Shown here: positions 1 to 9,776 of the stretch, in pieces
Numbering within the stretch: position 1 is the first letter of the stretch
How the letters are laid out: each line of letters opens with the position of its first letter
Assembly: GCF_003590795.1 (NCBI RefSeq)
Contig: NZ_QYUL01000001.1
Coordinates: 2,001,001-2,065,000 of the forward strand
Origin: Azospirillum cavernae
GTDB lineage: Bacteria; Pseudomonadota; Alphaproteobacteria; Azospirillales; Azospirillaceae
DNA: 64,000 bases
Direction: 5' to 3'
Notes under the pieces: model-generated
Databases searched by the model: none
What the model saw: only the letters and a program-made list of their open reading frames with translations
What the model was told of the DNA's origin: nothing
Position numbers and translations under genes: made by a program

Positions 1-415
1 AACCCAGACCAACGGCCATCCGAAGCTGCAACAGCTTGTTGCGGGCCAGACGGTTGGCGTTGGGATGATTCATCCACAGCGCGCCGTCGATGGCCGTCAG
101 CGCGCCTTCCAAAGTCCAGCGCATTTCGGATTCGGCCATAAGCCGCGCCGCAGGGTCGCTCAGATGGGGCGCTCTCGGCAATCCAATGTTGCGCACCAGA
201 ACAGACTTGATCGCCCCGCAGCGCTCAACGCCCCGCAAGAACAGCCGTGTGCGCGGAACGCCCTGTTCGACCACAAAGCCAATATCGACCGTCGCGCCAA
301 AGTCGGCTGTGTCGAAGACAATGACCTGTGAACCCAGCGCCGCCAATTCGGCGCGCACCAGATTCACATGGTCATCGGCCCCGTATGAAACGATCAGCGC
401 AAAACCGTCGCTCAT
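1..415 (-). CDS. ATP-grasp peptide ligase (graspetide/microviridin-type maturase), 5' part only
   Basis: The gene runs off the left edge, so only about 138 N-terminal residues are visible. They begin MSDGFALIVSYGADDHVN and contain a segment with the residues WMNHPNAN followed by RLARNKLLQLRMAVGLG. This matches the pre-ATP-grasp domain of MvdC/MvdD-type ligases, where a W-(I/M)-N-x-P-x-A-N stretch precedes a K-x-x-Q-L-x-x-A-x-x-x-G-L helix. Known members make ester or amide side-chain crosslinks in ribosomal peptides, in the cytoplasm, using ATP. The ATG lies 10 bases after the stop of a 56-codon ORF that I read as the precursor peptide, which fits a translationally coupled precursor-ligase pair. 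The catalytic ATP-grasp domain is outside the window, so substrate class and crosslink type cannot be read. An unrelated ATP-grasp ligase is less likely given the neighbour. Confidence 0.75.
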   Translation of the reverse strand, partial: MSDGFALIVSYGADDHVNLVRAELAALGSQVIVFDTADFGATVDIGFVVEQGVPRTRLFLRGVERCGAIKSVLVRNIGLPRAPHLSDPAARLMAESEMRWTLEGALTAIDGALWMNHPNANRLARNKLLQLRMAVGLG

Positions 416-425
416 CAAAAGACAA

Positions 426-596
426 TCACGCCTTTCCGGCGCTTGCAGCGCTGACGATCGGCTTCACAAACGATTCCTTCGGATCCATTTCGGTGTCCGT
501 CCCAACATACTGAGCGGCAATGCCGCCCGAAACGCTCACGCGCTTCTGAAACAGAAGAGGAGCGGCATGGGTCTTTTTGTTTTCAGAATTCGGCAT
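426..596 (-). CDS. Candidate graspetide precursor peptide (56 aa)
   Basis: This small ORF starts MPNSENKKTHAAPLLF and ends SAASAGKA. I chose the ATG at 596 because a promoter-like -35/-10 pair ends at 626, which would exclude an upstream GTG at 656. The middle of the peptide contains QYVGTDTEMDPKES, rich in Thr/Ser and Asp/Glu, the hydroxyl and carboxyl side chains that graspetide ligases join into omega-esters. The first 30 residues would then be the leader. It sits 10 bases upstream of the ATP-grasp ligase gene on the same strand. I do not recognise a named precursor family, so the precursor role is inferred from position and composition. It could also be an unrelated small protein. Confidence 0.6.
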   Translation of the reverse strand: MPNSENKKTHAAPLLFQKRVSVSGGIAAQYVGTDTEMDPKESFVKPIVSAASAGKA

Positions 597-625
597 TTGA
601 TGGTCTTTCAACAGTAATTTAGCGA

Positions 626-653
626 AATTTAGATTTTGCAATTCAGATGTCAA
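626..653 (-). promoter_or_regulatory. Sigma-70-like promoter for the precursor/ligase pair
   Basis: On the minus strand a perfect TTGACA (648-653) is followed after 16 bases by TAAATT (626-631). Transcription would begin near 619, about 23 bases before the ATG at 596. The surrounding 600-720 stretch is strikingly AT-rich for this GC-rich window, which suggests a foreign origin. Confidence 0.5.
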
Positions 654-734
654 CACACAATTTTTGACAATCCCGCAAAGAGATTGAGTGTTTTTCCAGA
701 ATCAACCTAAAATTAGCCTGCGACCATTCGACGC

Positions 735-858: not shown

Positions 859-1629
859 TCAGGATTGCCCTTCGCGGGCCTTCGTGGCGAAATCGTTCAA
901 CGCCGTCAAGGTCGCGTCGAATCGACCCTCCCGTTCGGCAAAGCGCAGGAAACGGACGCGCTCCACCAAAATTTCGGGCGGCGTCGGCGTCTGCGCGAAC
1001 AAGGCCATGACCTCCGTCATGAAGTCGTCGAGCGGCATGTAGCCGGGTCGGGTGGATTGGCCCGGCGTCAGGCCGGTTTGCACGGCGGGCGGGGCCAGCT
1101 CGATCACCTCGATCTTGCCCTTCAAAACCTCGCGCAGGCTGACGGTGTAGGAATGCAGCGCCGCTTTCGTCGCCGAATAGGTCGGCGCGGCGAGCAGCGG
1201 CACGAAGGCCAACCCAGAGGTGACGTTGATGATCGCCGCGTCCGGCTGACTGGCCAAATGATCGGTCAGCGCGTTGGTCAGGCGGATCGGGCCAAGCAGG
1301 TTGGTGGTGACGGCGGCCTCCGCCTCGGTCGAATCGCCCGACCGCGCCAAATCCTCAAACCCCATGATCCCGGCGTTGTTGACCAGGATGTTCACACCCG
1401 GATGCGCCGCCGTCACCGTGGCGGCAAAGGCCGTGACCGCGTCCTTGTCCGCCAGATCCAGCGCGTAACCGACCATGCCGGGATGCTCCGCCACAACCGC
1501 GTCCAACGCCGATTGGCGACGACCGGCGACGATGACGGCGTTGCCCAGCGCGTGAAAGCGCGCCGCCAGCTCCTTGCCGATCCCCGACGCGCCGCCGGTG
1601 ATGAGAATGGTGTTTCCGCTCTGTTTCAT
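859..1629 (-). CDS. Short-chain dehydrogenase/reductase (DltE-like SDR), 256 aa
   Basis: This is a classical SDR oxidoreductase using NAD(P). The cofactor loop TGGASGIG is at residues 11-18, NNAG at 84-87, the catalytic Ser near 138 and YSATK (Tyr151, Lys155) complete the active site. The length is typical of classical SDRs. The start at 1629 follows a GAGGG Shine-Dalgarno and gives the normal N-terminus. An upstream in-frame start would add 24 unconserved residues. The gene is divergent from an HxlR-type regulator, an arrangement usual for redox- or aldehyde-responsive SDRs, so that regulator probably controls it. The substrate cannot be read from the sequence. Confidence 0.88.
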   Translation of the reverse strand: MKQSGNTILITGGASGIGKELAARFHALGNAVIVAGRRQSALDAVVAEHPGMVGYALDLADKDAVTAFAATVTAAHPGVNILVNNAGIMGFEDLARSGDSTEAEAAVTTNLLGPIRLTNALTDHLASQPDAAIINVTSGLAFVPLLAAPTYSATKAALHSYTVSLREVLKGKIEVIELAPPAVQTGLTPGQSTRPGYMPLDDFMTEVMALFAQTPTPPEILVERVRFLRFAEREGRFDATLTALNDFATKAREGQS

Positions 1630-1754
1630 GGGACTGCCCTCGAACTGGTTTTCATGCTTCCCAGACAATGCGTCCGCCACTCTCCCGATGAAAGAAGGCA
1701 CCGAAAAGATTTATACTCACCAAAAAGAGAGCGTAGACAAACCAAGAGGTCGCG

Positions 1755-2192
1755 ATGTCCACCGCCCACCGCTTCACCCCCGAACACATCGCCCGCGCCC
1801 ACGCGCAGAGCGCCCAAACACCCCCGGCGGAGACGGACCCTCGGGTCGAGGCTCTGGTGCGTGACCTGATCGGCTGCGTGGCCGACAAATGGACGATGCT
1901 GATTCTCGAACTGCTGGCGGAACAGGGCGCGACGCGCTTCACCCAGTTGAATCGACGGATCGGGACCATCAGCCAGAAGATGCTGACGCAGACCCTGCGC
2001 CACATGGAACGCAACGGGCTGGTGATCCGCACCGTCCATCCGGTCGTCCCGCCAAAGGTCGAGTACGCCTTGACCGAGCTTGGCCTCAGCCTCGGGGCCG
2101 CCTTTTGCGGCGTGTGGATTTGGGCGGAAAACAACCTCGACGCGGTCGAAGCGTCCCGCAAGAGCTTCGAGAACCGCGCTGCGGAGCCATGA
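1755..2192 (+). CDS. HxlR-family winged-helix transcriptional regulator (145 aa)
   Basis: The HxlR/MarR-like winged helix occupies about residues 35-130, with the family signature DKWTMLILELL, then RFTQLNRRI and ISQKMLTQTLRHMERNGLV as recognition region, and a wing around VPPKVEYALTELG. Members often sense electrophiles or oxidants through cysteines and repress a divergent gene. Here the divergent partner is the SDR at 859-1629. The 125-base gap contains TACTC and GAGCGTA-like half-sites (about 1714-1735) that could be the operator. There are Cys residues near 48 and in the C-terminal helix, but I cannot assign a sensing role. Confidence 0.88.
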   Translation: MSTAHRFTPEHIARAHAQSAQTPPAETDPRVEALVRDLIGCVADKWTMLILELLAEQGATRFTQLNRRIGTISQKMLTQTLRHMERNGLVIRTVHPVVPPKVEYALTELGLSLGAAFCGVWIWAENNLDAVEASRKSFENRAAEP

Positions 2193-7538: not shown

Positions 7539-7619
7539 GTCTCCGAGTCGGAGATGGCTGAGACTCTCATGTGGCTTGCCACGGATTGCCGTGGGTGATT
7601 ATGAAATAGGCAATCCGTG
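7539..7619 (+). promoter_or_regulatory. Palindrome and two mutually exclusive hairpins upstream of the first chemoreceptor
   Basis: TCTCCGA-G-TCGGAGA (7540-7554) is a perfect palindrome. Further on, CCACGG-ATTG-CCGTGG (7579-7594) forms one hairpin, while CACGGATTGCC (7580-7590) pairs perfectly with GGCAATCCGTG (7609-7619) across 18 bases to form another. The two later hairpins share sequence and cannot coexist. The chemoreceptor ATG is at 7758. A regulatory leader is one explanation, and an operator or the terminator of the preceding operon is another. Confidence 0.45.
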
Positions 7620-7757
7620 CCCGCGCAATAAGCAAAACTCTTTCCCCCCAATATCTTCCTTTCTGTTTCCAGTGTTTACCCGCACCGATCGTTTCATTTT
7701 TCTTCAATGCGCTCCTGATAGCTTTCGCCGCAATTGTTGTGCTGGAGGCCAATCGGC

Positions 7758-9776
7758 ATGCTGAAAAATCTGAAAATCGCCGCCTTGACCAACCTGTTCG
7801 GGGTCGTCATCGCGCTTGGCTTCGTCGCGGTCGCCGCCACCGGGATGCTGGCCATCCGTGAGTTGAAGGTGGGCGGGCCGATGTATCAGCGGATCATCCT
7901 GGGCAAGGATCTGATCGCCGACATCCTGCCGCCGCCGGAATATGTGATCGAAGCCTATCTGGAAGTCACGCTGGCGCTGAACGACCCGGCTTCGGTCGGC
8001 CAACGGCGGGAGCGGTTGGCGCAATTGCGCAAGGATTACAACGAGCGACGCGATTATTGGAGCAAGCAGGACATCGACCCGGCCCTGCGCAACCGCCTGA
8101 CCGTCGTCTCCCACGCCCCGGCGACCCTGTTTTGGGGCGAGGTCGAGAACAAGTTCCTCCCCGCGCTGGCCAATGGCGACGCGGCGGCGGCGCGGGCGGC
8201 CTACAAGGCGCTCTCCGACGCGTACGCCGCCCATCGCGGGGTGATTGATTCCATCGTCGTCAACGCCAACCGCGCCAACGCCGACACCGAACGCGACGCC
8301 AACGACCGCGAATCCCTGTTCATGACCGCCGTCTGGGCGGCGTCGGCCCTGGTGCTGGTCGTGGTCGCGCTGGGCGTGCTGGGGATTCTCCAGCGGGTGA
8401 TCCGCCCGGTGGCCAGCCTGACCGGGGTGATGCGGGCGATGGCGCAGGGAAATTTGGACGTCGTTCTGCCCGACGACACCCGCCAGGACGAGATTGGCGC
8501 CATGACGATGGCCTTGCGCGTGTTCAAGGAGCACGCCGAGGAGGATCGCCGCCGCCGCGCCCAGGATCTGAACCGCGAACAGGCGGAGCAGGAAAAGCAA
8601 GCCGCCCTGCTGCGCATGGCCGAAACGGTGGAACGCGAAGCCGGAAACGCTGTGGACGCCGTCGCCCAGAAAACCGGCGACATGGCCGAAAACGCCGCCC
8701 GAATGGCTGATTCCGCCCAGGCGGTCAGCGACAACAGCCAGAACGTCGCGTCCGCCGCCGCCCAGGCGCTCAGCAACGCCCAGACCGTCGCCGCCGCGTC
8801 CGAACAGCTCAGCGCCTCCATCCGCGAAATCGCCAACCAGATCGGAGCCGCCAGCGCCATGACCGGACAGGCGGTGGACGCCTCGACCCACGAGGAAACC
8901 ACCATCCAGCGCCTATCCGACGCCGTCACCCGCATCGGCGAAGTCACCACCCTCATCAACGAGGTCGCCGGACAAACCAACCTGTTGGCGCTCAACGCCA
9001 CCATCGAAGCGGCACGGGCCGGCGAAGCGGGAAAAGGCTTCGCCGTCGTCGCCAGCGAGGTGAAGGCGTTGGCCGGACAGACCGCGCGCGCCACTGGCGA
9101 AATTGAATCGCACATCGCCACCATCCAGGCGACGACGTCCGAAGCGGTCGCGGCGGTGCGCGCCATCGCCGAACGGGTGCGCGGGGTGGAAAGCGTGTCT
9201 TCGACCATCGCGTCCGCCGTTCAACAGCAGGAAACCGCCACCAGCGAGATTTCCCGCAACGTCGCCCAGACCACCCAAGCCGCCCAGGAGGTCGCCAACC
9301 GCATCGCCGACGTGTCGTCGGAAGCGACCGCGACCGGCGCGCGGGCCAGCGCGGTGATGACCCTGTCCGATTCCGTCGCCGCCAGCATCGACCAGCTTCG
9401 CCATGTTCTGATTGAAACCATCCGCACCGCCACGCCCGAAGTGAACCGTCGGCGCTTCAGCCGCCATCCGCTGAACCGCCCGGGCCGTCTGCGCCTCGGC
9501 CACCAGGACGTCGCCGTCACCATCGACAACGCGTCCGAAGGCGGCGCGCAGATCAGCGGTCTGCCGCCCAGCACGCTGGCCAAACTGACCGAAGGCATGG
9601 CGGCGCAATTGATCCTGCCCGGCGTCGACAACCCCGTTCCGGCCCTGGTCCGTTCGCGGGATCGGAACGCCCAAATCCACTTGACCTTCACCTTGACGGA
9701 TGGCGAGCGCTCCGGCTTCGCCGATCAATTCCGCCGTTTGACAGCGGGCTTCGCCCCGCTGGCACGCGGCGCGTGA
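7758..9776 (+). CDS. Methyl-accepting chemotaxis protein with C-terminal PilZ domain (672 aa)
   Basis: The order is: TM1 (about residues 8-32), a roughly 155-residue four-helix-type periplasmic sensor, TM2 (about 190-212), HAMP (about 212-265), a cytoplasmic signalling coiled coil with the CheA/CheW-binding hairpin tip [19 protein letters not shown] near 400-420, then a PilZ domain from about 563. The PilZ part has the RxxxR start (RRRFSRHP) and an N-x-S-x-x-G motif (NASEGG), so it should bind cyclic di-GMP. This couples chemotaxis signalling to c-di-GMP. The start at 7758 follows GGAGG. A paralogue with the same architecture follows at 10226, and each is trailed by a small zinc-ribbon membrane protein. 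No CheWA genes are nearby. Confidence 0.93.

Follow-up and report, generated by a model that had tools for sequence, protein, structure and literature searches.

The window analysed here is a stretch of 64,000 nucleotides from the Azospirillum cavernae genome (G000:C1:2001001-2065000; genome size 6.46 Mb, in 9 contigs), and the DNA flanking it on the left was read as well (L002 = C1:1991001-2003000). At the left edge lies the beginning of an operon of four genes and 3.8 kb, which is encoded on the minus strand and runs out of the window. The first gene specifies a candidate precursor peptide of 56 aa (window positions 426-596, with the ATG at 596-594 and the stop codon at 428-426), and a gap of 10 bases separates it from the ATG (415-413) of a gene for a graspetide-type ATP-grasp ligase. 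The first 138 codons of this second gene occupy window positions 1-415 and encode a pre-ATP-grasp domain of the MvdD-like kind, followed by the beginning of the ATP-grasp domain, and the full gene, encoding 327 aa, spans G000:C1:2000432-2001415. Left of the window, and on the same strand, follow genes for a Mur ligase of 486 aa (G000:C1:1998975-2000435) and a GT4-like protein of 384 aa (G000:C1:1997824-1998978). The stop codon of the ligase gene overlaps the start of the Mur ligase gene (ATGA), and the Mur ligase's stop codon in turn overlaps the start of the GT4-like gene (GTGA). A convergent ChaN/PDZ gene is found at the operon's end, and neither a transporter nor a protease is encoded within the operon. 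At the level of sequence, this gene order and these overlaps are established, as are the families of the ligase and the Mur ligase, the catalytic motifs that both retain, and the nature of the locus as an islet.

A sigma-70-like promoter precedes the peptide on the same strand (626-653). It consists of TTGACA (653-648), a spacer of 16 bases and TAAATT (631-626), which together match the consensus at 10 of 12 positions, and it ends 30 bases before the peptide's ATG. The 4.4-kb region scanned holds two such promoter-like sites, one of them on the opposite strand, where shuffled sequences predict 0.4. The 104 bases 5' of the ATG have a G+C content of 34%, against 0.60-0.75 in most of the nearby 400-base windows. 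An earlier note on this DNA had described an AT-rich block, a promoter, a 56-codon peptide and a ligase 10 bases further on, and all four are present. It had also proposed a graspetide locus and advised extending the contig to the left in search of the full ligase and any transporter or acetyltransferase. The full ligase was indeed recovered; the transporter and acetyltransferase are absent, and their place is taken by genes for a Mur ligase and a GT4-like protein. The class of ligase held up, the peptide has graspetide-like leader features, and the two downstream genes, which make the locus unusual, were unforeseen. The locus is probably of the graspetide class.

By Pfam, the ligase comprises an MvdD pre-ATP-grasp domain (27.9 bits; cut-off 27) and a RimK ATP-grasp domain (29.6 bits; cut-off 21), both of which lie just over the gathering threshold. 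Among NCBIfam families, the highest scores were obtained with TIGR04187 (215.6 bits; curated cut-off 350), TIGR04185 or MvdC (195.3; 425), and TIGR04184 or MvdD (186.8; 475), and all three fall below their cut-offs. Other families scored far lower, including grasp-with-spasm (68.6 bits) and RimK (50.1 bits), which are also under cut-off, LysX (23.7 bits) and cyanophycin synthetase (10.4 bits). The MvdC/MvdD-like assignment of the earlier note is therefore borne out at the family level, since the TIGR04187, MvdC and MvdD scores are far above that of RimK, and RimK-like amino-acid addition was rejected on the same scores (50.1 vs 215.6 bits). Among solved structures, sequence comparison gives the microviridin enzymes 5ig8 and 5ig9 as the ligase's best relatives, together with 7m4s (AMdnB), 7mgv (CdnC) and 9bou. 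A six-sequence ligase profile matched these structures with 239-314 bits, compared to 49 bits for RimK. In a six-sequence alignment (A1), R218, D281, E294, N296, G299 and Q300 are invariant and K167 is present; these are signature residues of ATP-grasp enzymes, to which catalytic roles are ascribed. The full-length ligase thus keeps its ATP-grasp domain, and loss of the catalytic domain, which the earlier note had named as evidence against a graspetide locus, did not occur.

Membership in the graspetide-synthetase family is well supported by these scores, and the ligase appears to be an orphan member of that family. Its identity to any relative found is at most ~41% over at least 190 residues; one of the searches behind this figure, a scan of genome contigs, covered the best 80 of 538 relatives, so that closer ones may lie beyond these. 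Matches at E ≤1e-10 were found in 8 of 100 related genomes, its own included, with the best outside its own being 37% identical, and matches to the ligase profile at E ≤1e-20 occurred in 5 of 385 genomes of the class, again counting its own. Within the same genus, G021 carries a graspetide-type ligase at ~43,950 of one contig. When placed in a tree with 87 loci, the ligase has no neighbour, and it sits on an end branch of 1.22 at an unresolved fork; as a consequence, there are no sister-group precursors that could be used as a guide. A 21-residue ligase-like fragment in L022 is 62% identical. This latter locus, on a Bradyrhizobium plasmid, has an IS256-family transposase (7592-8866) shortly after its graspetide-type ligase, and a ligase-like fragment beyond (9014-9088). 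Finally, searches of anti-phage defence families returned no match for the ligase, the Mur ligase or the GT4-like protein.

The candidate precursor has the sequence MPNSENKKTHAAPLLFQKRVSVSGGIAAQYVGTDTEMDPKESFVKPIVSAASAGKA. Its salient features are PLLF (13-16), a Gly-Gly doublet (24-25), and the segment TDTEMDPKES (33-42), which is made up largely of Thr, Asp, Glu, Lys and Ser. Asp and Glu are absent after S42, so the only possible acceptors after Gly-Gly lie within this 10-residue stretch. According to Makarova et al. (2022, PMC8939145), two features mark the N-terminal 30 residues of graspetide precursors: a Pro-hydrophobic motif, and a doublet of the GG type. P13-L-L-F16 and G24-G25 fit these features in kind, although the spacing published there, Phhx(1,2)h, is not matched exactly. 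Comparable leader stretches occur at other loci, including TPLLFML (L065) and SPLLFRYLE (L030). More generally, a P-h-h-(F/M/L/Y) motif was seen in 24 of 242 same-strand short ORFs upstream of a ligase, and for opposite-strand ORFs the figure was 12 of 298 (by locus, 21 of 87 vs 11 of 87), an enrichment of only ~2.5-fold in a crude ORF set.

Whether such an ORF could arise by chance was estimated from 3,000 dinucleotide shuffles of a 241-base region. With ATG as the only start codon, 1.8% of the shuffles held an ORF that was no shorter than 56 codons and stopped no more than about 15 bases from the ligase start; with GTG and TTG admitted as well, 3.9% did. Taken alone, this result is suggestive and not strong. 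The G+C content at codon positions 1, 2 and 3 is 0.58, 0.47 and 0.62, respectively, which is weakly coding-like. Homology searches found nothing in its own genome beyond the peptide itself, no plasmid match at E ≤10, no matching NCBIfam family, and only chance-level matches (best E 0.61) among 102 loci, five of which are its own place. With no homologue to draw on, the coding status and the reactive residues lack support from conservation, and the peptide is called on the strength of where it lies, its promoter and its motif.

The earlier note had remarked on the missing microviridin TxKxPSD core, and this was confirmed; neither that core nor the PFFARFL leader of microviridins occurs in the 56 aa, and no known graspetide core pattern could be recognised by eye in the peptide. 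Two other candidate identities were considered. A likeness between APLLFQKR ... MDPKES and the P-W-G-L-R-R ... DPxTQ of the precursors at L083 and L087, which plasmid annotations suggest to be of the TgmA type, was noticed by eye and is no more than an idea, unsupported by any score. If this likeness held, DPKES would belong to the leader. What is left would then be the tail FVKPIVSAASAGKA, whose lack of Asp and Glu would speak against its being a graspetide core. A LysW-type carrier protein was rejected on the NCBIfam scores and on the peptide's C-terminus, AGKA, which is not the LysW end.

Candidate precursors were also seen at other graspetide-type loci. L018 (G063:C12), an alphaproteobacterial locus, has a candidate precursor with repeated DPxDPDRVR-type units. 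Two genomes of the same genus (L014 in G041 and L015 in G016) share a different graspetide-type pair, whose 43-aa candidate precursor contains FFVMFLE or FFVLFLE and has a TSKKKDD end. Repeated T-x-T...(D/E)D units were seen in the candidate precursors of L028, L036, L039 and L074 (loci from Nitrospirae, Chlamydiae, Elusimicrobiota and Mucilaginibacter).

Mur ligases serve chiefly in the building of the cell wall, and a few relatives function in the synthesis of folate, cyanophycin and cofactors. The third gene of the operon encodes a clear member of this family, with Mur_ligase_M at 120.1 bits (gathering 24) and Mur_ligase_C at 69.3 bits (gathering 28.4). By BLAST, residues 12-215 are 33% identical to the genome's own MurD and residues 120-483 are 30% identical to its own MurE. 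Four other Mur ligases, assigned by us to MurE, F, D and C, are clustered at C1:1.446-1.455 Mb, so the enzyme of the operon is an extra one. It keeps the catalytic motifs GTNGKST (125), MEAYGRVK (204), GRHNALN (290), PPGR (324) and DYAHTPD (342), of which the first is the P-loop and the second holds the lysine. Diaminopimelate-adding MurE is defined by DNPR and GKGHE. In an alignment to the genome's own MurE, the former is replaced by SAPR (403-406) and the latter by GLGAL (453-457), so that neither hallmark of diaminopimelate addition is present in the operon's Mur ligase. The simplest reading of this pattern is that the protein would be a working enzyme with a different amine substrate.

Few relatives of this Mur ligase were found. 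One of 45 genomes in the genus, one of 82 in the order and one of 385 in the class gave a match, and in each case it was the genome of origin. At a looser threshold, 3 of 398 genomes of the phylum matched, and the two additional hits, which cover only residues 162-481 at 39-40% identity, are taken to be ordinary MurE. The class and phylum scans scored three to four candidates per genome in sampled genomes, a depth at which a relative could be missed. Identity to plasmid proteins did not exceed 34.1% among 20 listed of 93 records, and no relative was found in viral contigs.

The call for the last gene of the operon is weak. The Pfam GT4 model gave 24.7 bits against a cut-off of 28.5, hence below gathering, and covered only the N-terminal 47 residues; no solved relative was found at a useful E-value (best 0.81). 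Matches at E ≤1e-4 occurred in 4 of 145 genomes, its own included, and of these only G024, another Azospirillum, was close (67% and 66% identity, in two pieces), with the longer of its pieces having no Pfam match at E ≤0.01. Plasmids yielded one weak match. The protein may nonetheless be a working glycosyltransferase.

Taken together, the four genes suggest, with reasonable confidence, a graspetide-type operon whose peptide is cyclised and then probably extended and glycosylated. In such a pathway, the 56-aa peptide would be the precursor, translated and then bound by the ligase through the PLLF region of its leader. The ligase would phosphorylate the Asp and Glu side chains D34, E36, D38 and E41 within TDTEMDPKES, and the side chains of T33, T35, K40 and S42 would attack to form ester or amide cross-links; we infer the substrate and the linked residues from the features described above. 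The Mur ligase, together with ATP, could then activate a remaining carboxylate, at the C-terminus or on a free Asp or Glu, and join it to an amine other than diaminopimelate, and the GT4-like protein could place a sugar on the same product. Removal of the leader would probably involve cleavage at Gly-Gly, with the protease gene lying elsewhere in the genome. That the mixed MurD/MurE ligase caps or branches a graspetide with a non-diaminopimelate amine and that the GT4-like protein adds a sugar, yielding a glycosylated, amino-acid-extended graspetide, is a more tentative proposal, and the tailoring of the peptide by these two proteins is suggested by one intact copy of the operon.

A less likely explanation is that an ordinary peptide-ligase pair shares its operon by chance with an unrelated Mur/GT4-like pair whose product is a cell-surface glycopeptide or polysaccharide decoration. 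Surveys of other loci lend this idea some weight. A tblastn search with the operon's Mur ligase and the genome's own MurC-F found no Mur-like gene in 90 graspetide-type loci, representing 89 places (L013 and L024 denote a single place, contig ends cut several loci short, and L019 is no more than a distant relative). None was found in eight further loci either, of which L150 repeats L018 and L152 extends less than 500 bases beyond its ligase. In total, an adjacent Mur ligase was found at none of ~95 other graspetide-type loci, several of them incomplete, and the two extra enzymes of this operon were seen beside no other such cluster.

The remnant in G024 also speaks for an independent Mur/GT4-like pair. 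One contig of that genome ends in approximately the last 33 codons of a Mur ligase gene resembling that of the operon (56% identity over 32 aligned residues; E 0.018). A 4-base overlap again joins the Mur stop codon to the start codon of the GT4-like gene, as ATGA in G024 and as GTGA in the window's genome. An IS3-like orfA, named by eye, lies directly 5' of the Mur tail. The GT4-like frame is shifted and then interrupted by inserted sequence, and the 18-base end of that insert recurs, inverted, beside the gene's second piece at the end of another contig. This second piece is located near GT2-like and nucleotide-sugar epimerase-like genes (names again by eye), and neither ligase nor peptide was found in G024 as far as it was searched. 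The Mur/GT4-like pair was therefore present in another lineage, where it has since decayed. The absent ligase is not informative, because everything 5' of the Mur tail was lost at the insertion. Given a single intact operon, and given that no ligase or peptide was detected in G024, the link of the Mur and GT4-like genes to the peptide rests on one operon.

Against an unrelated pair stand the 4-base overlaps from the ligase to the Mur ligase and from there to the GT4-like gene, which argue for coupled expression, and the location of all four genes inside one islet. The islet was delimited by comparison with 6 of the 44 other genomes of the genus. In five of the six, the end of the ChaN gene is followed by the NUDIX gene within ~20-120 bases, and in the window's genome the two are ~5.4 kb apart (from L002 6,800 to window 2,226). 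All six lack the islet at the ChaN-NUDIX site, G032 being without both the islet and the NUDIX gene; one of the six has the broken Mur/GT4-like remnant at another location. The sequence past the operon's end was matched in 45 of 45 genomes of the genus. Besides the operon, the islet carries a divergent gene pair at window positions 859-2192, for an SDR dehydrogenase and an HxlR regulator; DNA matching this pair occurs elsewhere in several other Azospirillum genomes.

Just 5' of the promoter, a stretch on the minus strand (778-843) resembles a NUDIX 3' end, with 72-73% identity to those of L141 and L143; a slightly longer piece (753-843) is 70.5% identical to L144, and the stretch was matched in 3 of the 6 genomes compared. 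The whole NUDIX gene lies beyond it, at 2213-2971. The ORF over the fragment had no Pfam match, and a self-comparison of the islet, in which the genome's own NUDIX gene was represented by its last ~90 bases, revealed no internal repeat. Most likely this stretch is a trace left when the islet arrived and does not belong to the peptide system; it looks as though the operon was brought in together with a piece of NUDIX. The four-gene RiPP operon was probably acquired horizontally.

The graspetide reading must also be weighed against the improbable case that the 56-codon ORF is not a substrate, or is not translated at all, and that the ATP-grasp ligase and the Mur ligase act on a small molecule or some other protein, in the manner of ATP-grasp/Mur pairs that add amino acids. 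The peptide's want of a homologue and a distant match of the Mur ligase to cyanophycin synthetase would be in keeping with this. The ligase, however, scores as a graspetide synthetase (215.6 bits) and not as RimK, LysX or cyanophycin synthetase (50.1, 23.7 and 10.4 bits, respectively), its pre-ATP-grasp domain is of the graspetide type, and promoter, spacing, PLLF and GG all suggest a precursor. Still more doubtful is a degenerate islet, an import that is decaying and no longer has a function: the islet is intact in one genome only, insertions break the G024 copy and the NUDIX-like fragment marks a rearrangement nearby. Against this, none of the four frames is interrupted, the motifs of the ligase and of the Mur ligase are preserved, and the promoter comes close to the consensus.

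What the full operon adds, as judged from sequence, is the coupling, within one inserted islet, of an orphan graspetide-type synthetase and a candidate precursor to a ligase of mixed MurD/MurE character and a GT4-like protein. No pairing of a graspetide with a Mur ligase surfaced, at listing level, in the open-access literature searched, and no Azospirillum graspetide surfaced in it either. The table of graspetide-associated families in Makarova et al. (2022, PMC8939145) includes neither a Mur ligase nor a glycosyltransferase. In the main text of Carter et al. (2026, PMC13097080), the partners named include phosphotransferases, PPIases, oxygenases, proteases, prenyltransferases and others, and the terms "Mur" and "glycosyl" appear 0 times. 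If the proposed pathway is true, the literature searched shows no earlier case of a Mur ligase with a ribosomal peptide as its substrate. Tailoring of a ribosomal peptide by such an enzyme would be new RiPP chemistry, the product may be a novel kind of decorated peptide, and the combination of graspetide synthetase and Mur ligase would offer a new handle for genome mining.

Among known systems, the rosaritide and corallotide clusters, as presented in the main text of PMC13097080, resemble this operon in combining a graspetide synthetase with further enzymes. With graspetides of the MvdC/MvdD, MdnB/MdnC, CdnC and TgmB/SAV_5884 type, the locus shares an MvdD-like pre-ATP-grasp domain and a short ORF directly 5' of the ligase; the candidate peptide also has a Pro-hydrophobic stretch and a Gly-Gly doublet that are similar in kind, and Thr, Ser and Lys near Asp and Glu. 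It differs from them in that Mur and GT4-like genes take the place of a transporter, methyltransferase, acetyltransferase or radical SAM enzyme. Similarly, the Mur ligase has the P-loop, lysine, HN and D(Y/F)AHTPD motifs of MurD and MurE, but it joins a MurD-like front to a MurE-like back, and DNPR and GKGHE are replaced. Finally, cyanophycin synthetase offers a comparison, in that it unites ATP-grasp and Mur ligase chemistry in one chain and makes a peptide-like product. That chain produces a polymer of Asp and Arg (PMC9262961); in the operon described here, by contrast, the two chemistries would reside in separate enzymes, the ATP-grasp enzyme is of the graspetide type, and there is a candidate ribosomal peptide.
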